Source: Syntrophomonadaceae bacterium
GTDB lineage: Bacteria > Bacillota > Dethiobacteria > DTU022
Length of the DNA stretch: 64,000 bases
Direction of reading: 5' to 3'
Assembly: GCA_003567725.1 (NCBI GenBank)
Contig: PWYU01000057.1
Location: 1-64,000, forward strand
Made by a program: the position numbers and the translations under genes
The notes under the pieces: generated by a model
What the model was told of the DNA's origin: nothing
The model's database searches: none
What the model saw: only the letters and a program-made list of their open reading frames with translations
Shown here: one piece after another, positions 53,340-64,000 of the stretch
How the letters are laid out: every line of letters starts with the position of its first letter
Numbering within the stretch: position 1 is the first letter of the stretch

Positions 53340-56300
53340 TTGGATCAGATGATGGAACTAAAAGGCGAACAGCTGCTTAAAAGTCTTGCCGGCGGTAATT
53401 TCGGAGACGTCATGGTGGTCGGCGGAGGGGTCAGCGGGATCCAGGCTTCCCTGGACCTGGCCGCAGTGGGCTTCAAGGTTTACCTGGTTGACAGGGCTCC
53501 CGCCATCGGGGGCCACATGGCCCAGCTGGATAAAACCTTCCCCACCAATGACTGTTCGATGTGAATACTCTCGCCCAAGCTGGTCGAGGTCGACCGGCAC
53601 ACCAACATCGAAGTCATTTCCTATACTGAAGTTGACAGCGTAGAGGGGGAAGCGGGTAATTTCAGGGTCAGGCTGAGGAAAAAGCCCCGCTATATCCGGG
53701 AAGACAAGTGCACCGGCTGCACCGTGTGCACAGAATACTGCCCGGTCCAGTACCCAGATGAATTTAACCAGGATATTTCGAACAACAAGGCTATCCATAT
53801 CTATTACTCTCAGGCCATACCTTTGATAACTTACATTGATGAAAACTGCCTCTACTTAAAAGAGGGGAAATGCCTGATTTGCGAGGCGGTCTGTCAAAAT
53901 GAAGCGATAGATTTCAGCCAAACTGAAGAAATAATGGAAATTAATGTCGGGGCGGTAATTTTAGCCCCCGGTTATGAAGAATATGATCCCATGATCAGGG
54001 GAGACTATGGAGCCGGAAAGTACGAAAACGTGGTCTCCAGTATGGACTACGAGCGGCTAACCGATTCCACCGGCCCTTACGAGGGGCAGGTCCTGCGCCC
54101 TTCGGACCTGGAGCATCCCCGTAAAGTGGCCTGGATCCAGTGTGTTGGCTCCAGGCAGGTCAACCCGCCGGGAGCCAACAGCTACTGCTCTTCGGTATGC
54201 TGTACTTACACCCAGAAACAGGTCATTTTAACCAAGGAGCATGACCCGGAAACCGAATGCACCGTTTTCCACAACGATATCCGTTCCTACGGCAAAGATT
54301 TTGAAAGGTTTTACCAGAGGGCGGAAGAAATGCCGGGGGTCAGGTTTTTCAGGAGTTATGTGTCAGTGGTCAGAGAAGATCCGGAAACCAAAAACGTGAC
54401 TATAAAATATACCACCCCCGAGGAGGGGGTAAAAGAAGAAGAATTTGACCTGGTGGTTCTGTCAGTAGGCCTGAGCCCGCCGCCGGATGTAGAAGGGCTG
54501 GCTAAAAAGTTCGGGCTCGAATTAAATGACCACGGTTTTTGCAAAACCAACCCGGTCAACCCCATAGAAACATCGCGTCCGGGCTTCTACATCAGCGGGG
54601 CATTCCAGGGCCCGCTCGATATCCCCGAATCGGTAGTTACCGCCAGCGGCGCCGGATCACAGTGCGGCGAACTGCTAAATTACCGCAAAGGCGACCTGTC
54701 CGTGGAAAGGGTCTACCCGCCGGAAAAAGACGTTTCCCTGGAAGAACCGCGGATCGGAGTCTTTGTCTGTCACTGCGGGGCCAATATCGGCCGAGTGGTT
54801 GATGTCCCTTCAAATGTCGAGTACGCATTAACCCTGCCCAATGTTGTATATGCCCAGGAACAGCTTTTTTCCTGCGCCACCAACAGTGCCGAAGAAATAA
54901 CCGAAAAAATCAAGGAAGAAAATCTCAACCGGGTTATCGTCGCCGCCTGTTCCCCGAGAACCCTCGAGATGCTTTTCCGGGACACCCTGAGGGAAGCGGG
55001 CATCAACCAGTACTATTACGAGATGGCCAATATCAGGGAACATTGCTCCTGGGTCCATCCCAAGCAAAAAGATGAAGCCACTCAAAAAGCGAAAGATATC
55101 ATCAGGATGGCCGTGGCAAGGACCCGCTACCTGGAACCGCTGATGGAGATCGATCTGCCGGTGGACAAAAGGGCCCTGGTAGTTGGGGCCGGCGTAGCCG
55201 GGATGACCTCTGCCCTGTCCATTGCCGAACACGGCCACCATGTCTACCTGGTGGAAAAAGAACCCGTCCTCGGGGGAACGGCCAGGAAAGTTTATGACAC
55301 CCTGGAAGGCCTTGATGTCCAGGAATTCCTGCGCGATCTGATCGAAAGAGTCTACCGGCATCCCCTGATCCATGTTTATACCGGGGCCGAGATTACCGGG
55401 ACTGCCGGTTACATCGGCAACTTTGCGACCAAAGTCCAGTCCGGCCGGGGCAGCGTCGAGATAAAACACGGGGCCACGGTGATCGCAACCGGGGCTGACG
55501 TTTACACTCCCACCGAGTATCTCTACGGTGAAGACGAGCGGGTTATGACCCAGCTGGAACTGGAAGAAAAAATTACCACCGGAGACGAAATAGTGGCCCA
55601 TGCAGAAAACGTGGTCATGATCCAGTGCGTGGGCTGCAGAAACGAGGATCGCAATTACTGCAGCCGGATCTGCTGCAACGAATCAGTCAAAAATGCCCTG
55701 ACTTTAAAAGAAAAGAACCCCGATCAGGATGTCTACATCCTTTTCAGGGATATGAGAACTTACGGTTACAACGAAGACTATTACCGGGAAGCCGCCGACA
55801 AAGGGGTCGTATTTATCCGCTATGAACCCGGACAGGAACCGCAGCTTGAACCGGCCGAAGAAGAAGGGCGCCCGGTTTTAAAAGTGACCCTGCCCGATTA
55901 CGTGCTGCAAAAAAATATCGAAATAGATGCCGACCTCATCGCCCTGGCCGCTGCGGTTATTCCTTCCGCCGGGACCAGGAAAATAGAAAATCTATTCAAG
56001 GTGGGCCTGAACCCGGATGGCTTTTTCAAGGAAGCGCATGTCAAGTTAAGGCCGGTGGAGTTCGCCGCTGAAGGAGTCTATCTGTGCGGTATAGCCCACT
56101 ACCCCAAACTGATTACAGAAACTGTCAGCCAGGCTTTCGGCGCCGCCGGCAGGGTCCTGGCCCTGCTTTCAAACGACATTGTCACCGCTTCCGGGGCGAT
56201 ATGCGAAGTGGAAGAAAACAAATGTGTTACCTGCGGGGCCTGCATCGATGTCTGCGCCTACGGGGCCATAGCATTCCAGGAAACAGAAACCGGCCTTACG

Positions 56301-56465
56301 GCGGCCGTAAACCCGGTCCTGTGCAAAGGAGACGGTCTCTGCAATGCCGTCTGCCCAACAGGTGCAATCCAGTTAAAACACTTTACCGATGAGGAGCTGC
56401 TCAGTCAAATCGATGCGGCCGCTCCCGAAGAAGAAAGCGCAGATAAAAAAGAAGCGGCCGTTTAA
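53340..56465 (+). CDS. bamE: HdrA-like FAD/Fe-S subunit, selenoprotein (Sec75)
   Basis: The gene spans a TGA at 53562-53564 and encodes 1041 residues if it is read as selenocysteine. Upstream is [20 protein letters not shown] for FAD and NDCSM; downstream the same frame goes on as [17 protein letters not shown], so U75 replaces the Cys in the HdrA motif. Later come [12 protein letters not shown] (residue 124), CLICEAVC, a second FAD motif ([20 protein letters not shown], 615), [17 protein letters not shown], and two ferredoxin sites ([11 protein letters not shown], 961; [12 protein letters not shown]). HdrA-type flavins can bifurcate electrons. TTG start after GGCGAGGTG. A gene caller would split or truncate it. 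Confidence 0.93.
53562..53598 (+). promoter_or_regulatory. UGA selenocysteine codon and SECIS-like hairpin of bamE
   Basis: GCTGGTC (53579-53585) pairs with GACCGGC (53592-53598), with one G-T pair, leaving the loop GAGGTC. The GGUC loop resembles that of the E. coli fdhF SECIS, and lies about five bases further from the UGA than there. Confidence 0.7.
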
Positions 56466-56518: not shown

Positions 56519-57283
56519 ATGAGTGAAAAGCACACATTCAAACCGAAAGTAATTGGCTTCGTATGCCAGTGGTGAGGATATGGAGCTGCGGACTTGGCTG
56601 GAGTTTCCAGACTACAATATACAACTGAAATCAGGCTGATTCGGGTCATGTGCAGCGGGCGGATCGATCTGTCCCACCTGTTCAGGGCCTTTTCGAACGG
56701 GATGGACGGCGTGTTCATCGGCGGCTGTCACTTAAAAGAGTGCAACTATGTTACCCAGGGTAATTACCATGCCCTGAACCTGGTCTTATTGAGCAAGCGG
56801 ATTATGAAACATATCGGGCTGAACCCCGACCGCTTGAGGATAGAATTTATGTCTTCCGGCGAAGGGAACCTGTTTGCCCGGGCTGTGGATGATTTTGTAA
56901 AAACGGTCAGGGAAGCGGGGCCGCTCGGCATCAGTGAAGGGCTGGACCGGGAAACCCTAAAGCTTAATATAAAAGCTGTTTCCAAACTGATCCCTTATAT
57001 CAGGCTGGTAGAAAGCGAAAGGTTAAGGGGCCATTTTGAAACCCAGGATCAGTTTAAAGCCTTTTATAACAGCGAGGAATTTGAAAGACTTTTTAAAGAG
57101 TTGATCGCCGATAAACTGGCCATCAGCCAGATCATGTCCCTTTTAAAGGAAAAACCCTTATCCACCGGGGAAATTTCGGAAATCCTGGGCCTTAGTCCAT
57201 CCGATATATCAAAACACCTGAAGAATTCGGCCAAGCAGGGATTAGTCAGGTATGAAGAAAACCAGAAACGCTTCGCTTTATGA
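56519..57283 (+). CDS. bamF: MvhD-like selenoprotein (Sec19) with C-terminal winged helix
   Basis: ATG at 56519 follows CCAGGAGGTGGCGGCGG. The frame reads FVCQW, TGA (56573-56575), GYGAADLAG, the MvhD N-terminal Fe-S motif with selenocysteine in place of Cys. It continues with VMCSGRIDLSHLFRAF and GVFIGGCHLKECNY. The full product has 254 residues. MvhD proteins pass electrons between a flavin or hydrogenase unit and HdrA. Residues about 195-254 form a helix-turn-helix (LSTGEISEILGLSPSDISKH) that ordinary MvhD lacks. Sec in the BamF homologue of Geobacter is, as I recall, known. Confidence 0.92.
56573..56610 (+). promoter_or_regulatory. UGA selenocysteine codon and possible SECIS of bamF
   Basis: After the UGA the best local hairpin is CTGGA with TCCAG (56598-56610). 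It is short, so the SECIS assignment here rests more on the protein motif than on the fold. Confidence 0.5.
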
Positions 57284-63319: not shown

Positions 63320-63916
63320 ATGACGGTAAAAGTAGGTCAGGCAGCCCCTGATTTTGAAGCTAATGCCTATGTAGATGGCGGTTTTAAACAAATTAAGCTT
63401 TCCGATTATAAAGACAAATGGGTGGTGCTGTGTTTTTATCCTGGCGATTTTACCTTTGTCTGACCAACTGAGTTGGCGTCAGTTGCCGCCAGGTATAAAG
63501 AACTGCAGGATCTGGGCGTTGAAGTGCTTTCATGCAGCGTAGACAGCCAGTTTACTCACAAGGTTTGGCAGGAAGTAGAATTATCCAAGATGGTTGATGG
63601 TGGCGTGCCATTTCCCATGCTTTCTGATACAGGAGGTAAAATAGGCACTTTGTATGGTGTATACGATGAAGAAGCTGGCGTAAATGTAAGAGGCCGCTTC
63701 CTAATTGACCCGGATGGCAAAATCCAGGCTATGGAAATCCTTACACCCCCAGTCGGCCGGAATTTTTCCGAATTAATTCGGCAGGTACAGGCCTTCCAGC
63801 ATGTGCGTGCAACTGGAGAACCGACTCCAGCCGGCTGGCAGCCGGGCAAGAAGACCCTGAAACCCGGCCCGGAACTGGTAGGTAAAGTTTGGGAAACCTG
63901 GAAGATTGGTGATTAA
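63320..63916 (+). CDS. Peroxiredoxin, selenoprotein (Sec48)
   Basis: ATG at 63320 follows AAAAGGAGGTTTTAAT. The frame reads [19 protein letters not shown], then [12 protein letters not shown] at 63461-63463, [15 protein letters not shown]48 stands exactly at the peroxidatic Cys of the FTFVCPTE motif. The product has 198 residues and a normal AhpC/Prx C-terminal half. Selenocysteine peroxiredoxins are known from Clostridia such as Eubacterium acidaminophilum. It reduces peroxides in the cytoplasm. The next gene starts 20 bases later and is probably a partner. Confidence 0.93.
63461..63491 (+). promoter_or_regulatory. UGA selenocysteine codon and SECIS-like hairpin of the peroxiredoxin
   Basis: TGGCG (63474-63478) pairs with CGCCA (63487-63491) around the loop TCAGTTGC. 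The loop lies about 16-23 bases past the UGA, the usual distance for bacterial SECIS elements. Confidence 0.6.
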
Positions 63917-63936
63917 TAGCAGAGGAGAGAAGAGAA

Positions 63937-64000
63937 ATGTTTAAATTTTACTGTTTTCCGACTTGAAATACTTGCCGTAAAGCGAAAGCGTGGCTTTCAG
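63937..64000 (+). CDS. Spx/ArsC-like selenoprotein (Sec10), cut by the window edge
   Basis: ATG at 63937 follows GAGGAGAGAAGAGAA. The visible frame is MFKFYCFPT, TGA (63964-63966), NTCRKAKAWLS. This is the start of the ArsC/Spx thioredoxin fold, with U at position 10 and Cys at 13 giving UxxC in place of the CxxC of Spx-like proteins. Only 20 residues besides Sec are visible, so the subfamily (regulator or reductase) is not determined. It is probably co-transcribed with the peroxiredoxin gene. Confidence 0.8.

Follow-up and report, generated by a model that had tools for sequence, protein, structure and literature searches.

A predicted ArsC/Spx-fold selenoprotein encoded directly behind a selenocysteine peroxiredoxin in anaerobic Bacillota

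Introduction

The window analysed here, a contig stretch of 64,000 nucleotides, breaks off just inside an open reading frame that starts a few bases behind a gene for a selenocysteine (Sec) peroxiredoxin and has a UGA as its tenth codon. The locus raises the question of what this frame encodes, whether its UGA is read as Sec, and whether the two neighboring genes form a functional unit.

Sec-containing ArsC-like proteins as such are already known, having been reported since 2005–2008. ArsC-family proteins with a UxxS motif were found in the Sargasso Sea (PMC1088965), ArsC-like selenoproteins appear in genome surveys (PMC1794560), the Global Ocean Sampling data contributed a UxxC protein called 'Arsenate reductase 2' and assigned to cd03032 (PMC2398784), and a 2026 review lists the UxxC family NF041106 (PMC13188914). 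The operon section of that review describes peroxiredoxin genes with SelW-like genes and peroxiredoxin-like genes with AhpD-like genes, but a peroxiredoxin with an ArsC gene is absent from it, and for the Clostridia that it tabulates PMC1794560 gives no ArsC-like selenoprotein. Our search of the literature on PrxU and Spx/ArsC selenoproteins, which had most subscription papers outside its range, returned nothing on a prxU–arsC(Sec) pair. Both the ArsC-like subfamily and the pair therefore appear to be so far undescribed.

Results

The contig (105849 bases) extends past the window, and the frame can be followed to its end. It opens on the forward strand with an ATG at 63937, occupies positions 63937–64000 of the window and closes at a UGA at contig positions 64282–64284, giving a protein of 115 residues with the sequence MFKFYCFPTUNTCRKAKAWLSDNNVDFEYRDILELPLIKEELDELAKLGSTSIKDLLNPGSKGFKELKLDLDMINDQEAAELIKKNPKIMKRPLLTDGKKLALGFKIEEYEALIR. 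The UGA of codon 10 (Sec10, hereafter U10) lies at 63964–63966, Cys13 is encoded at 63973–63975 and a further cysteine, Cys6, at 63952–63954. We discarded the idea that the terminal UGA also encodes Sec, because near relatives terminate within a few codons of the same place with TAA or TAG; the last UGA is a stop.

The complete protein matches the Spx/MgsR family model TIGR01617 from end to end with 95.1 bits (cut-off 75) and scores 71.6 bits against Pfam ArsC, and the PDB chains that its sequence matches are Spx and ArsC-like proteins. An AlphaFold model built with 22 aligned members as input has a pLDDT of 95.7, and the closest solved structures found with Foldseek are Spx, a Bacteroides ArsC-like protein and YffB. 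With a whole-length match and the corresponding fold, the protein belongs to the ArsC/Spx superfamily. From the opening codons, the initial annotation had read the start of an Spx/ArsC protein whose first active-site residue is Sec; the full 115-residue fold and the retention of the UGA in relatives bear this out, and the sequence beyond position 64,000 excludes an early closure of the frame without that fold.

The reading of codon 10 depends on how widely its UGA is kept. A plain protein query of contigs recovered two congeners only, and an alignment search of whole genomes proved far more sensitive, finding the UGA in register in 45 distinct ArsC-like sequences across the phylum. The protein occurs with UGA at the same codon in 31 of the 98 genomes of the source genome's class; of 399 genomes drawn from the phylum, 17 contain it, always with the UGA, and 14 of these lie outside the class. 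A UGA shared at one codon by 31 of 98 class genomes and by 14 more in the phylum excludes a chance in-frame triplet. Cysteine forms exist as one orthologue (L054) and a set of paralogues, and in the tree a long, well-supported branch separates all 45 members, Sec forms as well as the one Cys form, from these paralogues.

Immediately behind the UGA the coding sequence carries a SECIS-like stem-loop (63984–63998, forward strand; GAAAGC-GUG-GCUUUC), the apical loop of which begins 26 nt downstream from the U of that codon. The codons at +6 to +10, GCG AAA GCG TGG CTT, are nearly unchanged in 22 sequences, although the other proteins are only 50–78% identical to that of the window, and at other places in these genes the residues concerned are written with mixed codons. 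These fixed codons form the stem C-GAAAGC/GCUUUC-G around the loop GUG. Across the 45 distinct sequences, pairing is found in 90.8% of cells, with three pairs altered on both sides; shifting the partner by 1–3 columns as a control lowers pairing to 22–58%. L054, the only close relative in which Cys replaces Sec, has lost the stem (CTG for CTT, ACG for GCG). Folding single 54-nt windows by minimum energy gave inconsistent results, and the stem was settled with a short window, synonymous re-encoding and the covariation count; copies with a 6-bp rather than a 7-bp stem, including that of the window, have an unexceptional single-sequence folding energy. The gene has the features of a bacterial SECIS, namely a stem-loop directly behind the UGA whose small apical loop contains a G (PMC1088965). 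Behind the UGA, two distant members (L078 and L081) have different codons, which nonetheless pair into a stem in a shifted register; these sequences suggest that the SECIS stem has been replaced as a whole.

The source genome encodes a Sec insertion set of SelA, SelB, SelD and tRNA-Sec. SelB and a tRNA-Sec with anticodon UCA score over their cut-offs, SelA was assigned by reading the sequence of the frame adjoining selB, and SelD, encoded near selB, was assigned by its AIRS domains. The selD gene (L113:6957-8006, contig C36) lies directly behind selA and selB and itself contains an in-frame UGA (SAGUAAK). That codon 10 of the ArsC-like gene is a true stop or a sequencing error, with no selenoprotein made, has nothing that speaks for it and next to no probability given the conservation in 45 distinct sequences, the selection at synonymous sites behind the UGA, the control provided by the Cys relative and the complete Sec machinery, and we reject it. 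Judged by this comparative evidence, the codon is a selenocysteine codon.

The earlier figure of four UGA-Sec genes in about 10.4 kb is correct, the UGAs lying at 53562, 56573, 63461 and 63964 in genes for HdrA-like, FlpD/MvhD-like, PrxU and ArsC-like proteins, respectively. The HdrA-like frame spans 53343–56465, with the UGA in the context TNDCSMUILS. The FlpD/MvhD-type frame (56519–57283) encodes a CQWU motif and a C-terminal ArsR-type HTH domain (PF01022), so that an electron-transfer subunit is joined to a DNA-binding domain, which is unusual. Elsewhere in the source genome, two thioredoxin-like frames with one in-frame TGA each (G000:C120:18566-18850 and C84:11164-11457; L123 and L124) are candidate selenoproteins.

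The fold admits two familiar functions, a Spx-type transcription factor and an arsenate reductase, and we reject both. As a Spx regulator the protein would carry a selenenylsulfide switch in place of the C10–C13 disulfide, a reading consistent with the TIGR01617 score and with the best structural matches, which are to Spx: the model superposes on the Bacillus subtilis protein (PDB 1z3e, 3gfk and 7f75) with TM 0.87–0.88, and U10 and C13 fall exactly at Spx Cys10 and Cys13. However, Spx absolutely requires Gly52 to bind the C-terminal domain of the RNA polymerase alpha subunit and needs Arg60 for activation (PMC2801614). Position 52 of the ArsC-like protein is Ser, with Gly in none of the 22 aligned members, and position 60 is Gly, with mostly residues other than Arg in relatives. 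The protein also scores under the cut-offs of the Spx models NF002459, NF009210 and NF009885, is ∼16 residues shorter and lacks the C-terminal tail, and it has the additional Cys6, which is invariant among aligned members and missing from Spx. With Gly52 and Arg60 both gone, a regulatory role of this kind is highly improbable; what stands of the name Spx/ArsC-like is the fold with its UxxC motif, and what falls is the implied Spx regulator. Reduction of arsenate, or of another oxyanion, by means of Sec is likewise very unlikely. Membership of Pfam ArsC speaks for it, as does one copy (L059) whose back-to-back neighbors are arsR, a permease gene and acr3, but the score against the arsC equivalog model TIGR00014, 48.5 bits, is less than half of the cut-off (106.05). 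The Escherichia coli enzyme needs three arginines (PMC3169414), of which, by sequence alignment rather than superposition, only R92, preceding the cis-proline P93, is evident and invariant, with no clear counterpart of Arg60 or Arg106/107. The locus moreover contains no ars genes, and acr3 of the source genome is on another contig, with arsR and with no ArsC gene within 1.5 kb.

Several other known proteins come close to the present one. YffB-type ArsC-related proteins (PDB 1rw1 and 2kok), proposed to be thiol reductases (PMC3169414), likewise keep one of the three ArsC arginines, but Brucella YffB has a single Cys where the present protein has U10, C13 and Cys6. NF041106 (ArsC_rel_Se_1, ArsC family (seleno)protein) combines the ArsC fold with UxxC, but the present protein reaches only 21 bits against its cut-off of 85 and belongs to another subfamily. 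A further point of comparison is cd03032, which we take to be the Spx-type ArsC domain. The 42 'Arsenate reductase 2' sequences assigned to it (PMC2398784) resemble the present protein, by description rather than by sequence, in their ArsC family and in having Sec first in UxxC; they differ in being marine metagenome reads, with no Sec-peroxiredoxin neighbor reported in the accessible part of that paper. The Desulfotalea/Desulfuromonas ArsC-like and distant ArsC selenoproteins are early genomic examples of the same kind but come from Deltaproteobacteria, and the accessible part of their source (PMC1794560) reports no pairing.

The upstream gene, prxU (63320–63916, forward strand), encodes a 198-residue protein with a UGA at 63461–63463 (Sec48). 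It scores 372 bits against NF040737 (cut-off 270), has Sec at the peroxidatic position and is an ordinary PrxU; the new part is its neighbor. Its UGA is retained in 25 of 25 distinct short-type sequences tested, and a SECIS-like stem-loop of its own (63474–63491, forward strand; UGGCG-UC-AGUU-GC-CGCCA) coincides with a stretch, codons +4 to +9 behind the UGA, in which the choice among synonymous codons is fixed in these 25 sequences. At the position of the resolving Cys, PrxU has Thr (GEPTPAGW, compared with GEVCPAGW in human peroxiredoxin 2), and this holds for both short and long types. Lacking a resolving Cys, PrxU needs an outside thiol or selenol partner to resolve its oxidized Sec. The long type (L105–L112) carries a MPEEFKPGCQRP extension at its N-terminus; its SECIS stem is another one, although the AGUU tip is shared, and no ArsC-like gene lies beside it in the stretches fetched.

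The two genes are separated by exactly the 20 bases that had been noted (63917–63936), which include a strong ribosome-binding site (AGAGGAGAG). The gap is 14–23 bases in near relatives and 61–73 in others. Intact same-strand prxU–arsC(Sec) pairs are found in 14 genomes from six genera, which belong to three families of the order. Two more genomes have a decayed ArsC-like gene, truncated or broken, behind an intact PrxU (L093 and L104), with UGA and stem surviving in the L093 remnant. Such decay has left a congener with PrxU and no more than the 5′ part of the ArsC-like gene. In L066 a PrxU remnant precedes an intact ArsC-like gene. In at least nine genomes of the order, short-type PrxU has no ArsC-like gene behind it and is followed by a different gene, often a macro-domain gene, which also follows the pair in the source genome. 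For the 14 members outside the class, the 1.5 kb fetched contains no PrxU gene. The paired members fall in two parts of the ArsC-like tree. From the tree and the distribution of pairs, the ArsC-like selenoprotein is wider and probably older than the pairing, which is local to the order.

In most genera the ArsC-like gene is solitary, and its neighborhoods vary. It adjoins genes for desulfoferrodoxin (superoxide reductase) and a Fur/PerR-type regulator in L060 and L061, with rubrerythrin close by; desulfoferrodoxin and a flavin reductase-rubredoxin are encoded near it in L063, and rubrerythrin about 1.7 kb away in L064. An EVE-domain-type gene lies downstream of the solitary copy in several genera (L059, L061, L062, L065, L069 and L070), assigned by Pfam in L059 and by eye in the others.

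Discussion

Taken together, fold, motif and gene neighborhoods point to a small selenol–thiol:disulfide oxidoreductase, glutaredoxin- or thioredoxin-like, that probably serves in the peroxide and oxygen defence of anaerobic Bacillota and would help to recycle PrxU in this lineage; we favor this reading, if with some reserve. Chemistry of the thioredoxin/glutaredoxin type would take place at U10-x-x-C13, beside the extra invariant Cys6, and the fold class suggests U10 as nucleophile and C13 as resolver. Peroxide would turn Sec48 of PrxU into a selenenic acid. Since PrxU has no C-terminal resolving Cys, a thiol or selenol from outside would have to take over, and U10 would be a suitable attacker. 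C13 could then resolve the mixed bond with PrxU, after which thioredoxin, which is present in the source genome, would re-reduce the U10–C13 pair. UGA conservation, the SECIS-like element, the fold and the co-directional pairing with PrxU are read directly from the sequences; the electron path from thioredoxin through the ArsC-like protein to PrxU is suggested by the pairing and the missing resolving Cys.

A narrower version, which we put forward tentatively, would make the two proteins a selenium-to-selenium peroxide-reducing relay, in which a dedicated ArsC-fold Sec donor resolves the one-Sec PrxU and both are made from one transcript. We know of no ArsC-fold member with such a PrxU-resolving activity. 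It is also possible, if rather doubtful, that the protein is a general selenol oxidoreductase linked to reactive oxygen, acts on other substrates such as protein disulfides or mixed disulfides of CoA or low-molecular-weight thiols, and stands beside PrxU through shared stress expression. The solitary genes of most genera, the stress-gene neighbors in places without PrxU and the independent loss of the two genes agree with this, but the retention of the pair in three families, on the same strand and with short gaps, does not. The desulfoferrodoxin, rubrerythrin, Fur/PerR-type regulator and flavin reductase-rubredoxin genes near unpaired copies support the peroxide-defence part of our preferred reading, an oxidoreductase that assists PrxU. 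Against this reading stand the PrxU-only genomes, the remnants, the varied solitary neighborhoods and the arsR/acr3 neighbors in L059, and the independent losses argue against an obligate pair. PrxU-only genomes, single-gene remnants and the lack of pairing outside the class indicate that neither gene absolutely depends on the other, and PrxU is a probable, but not an obligate, partner in this lineage. The two-gene selenium redox module proposed by the initial annotation holds in so far as the pair is kept intact in 14 genomes and three families; a survey of other genomes limits it to one order, with many genomes carrying one gene alone and no pairing outside the class within 1.5 kb. It is better described as a gene arrangement of local extent than as two parts that require each other.

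The subfamily falls below the cut-off of every curated NCBIfam selenoprotein model and occurs in roughly one in three genomes of its class, where ordinary annotation would probably cut the gene at the UGA. The conserved pair singles out a specific candidate electron donor for a Sec peroxiredoxin without a resolving Cys, and provides a testable case in which two Sec active sites may hand electrons directly to one another.
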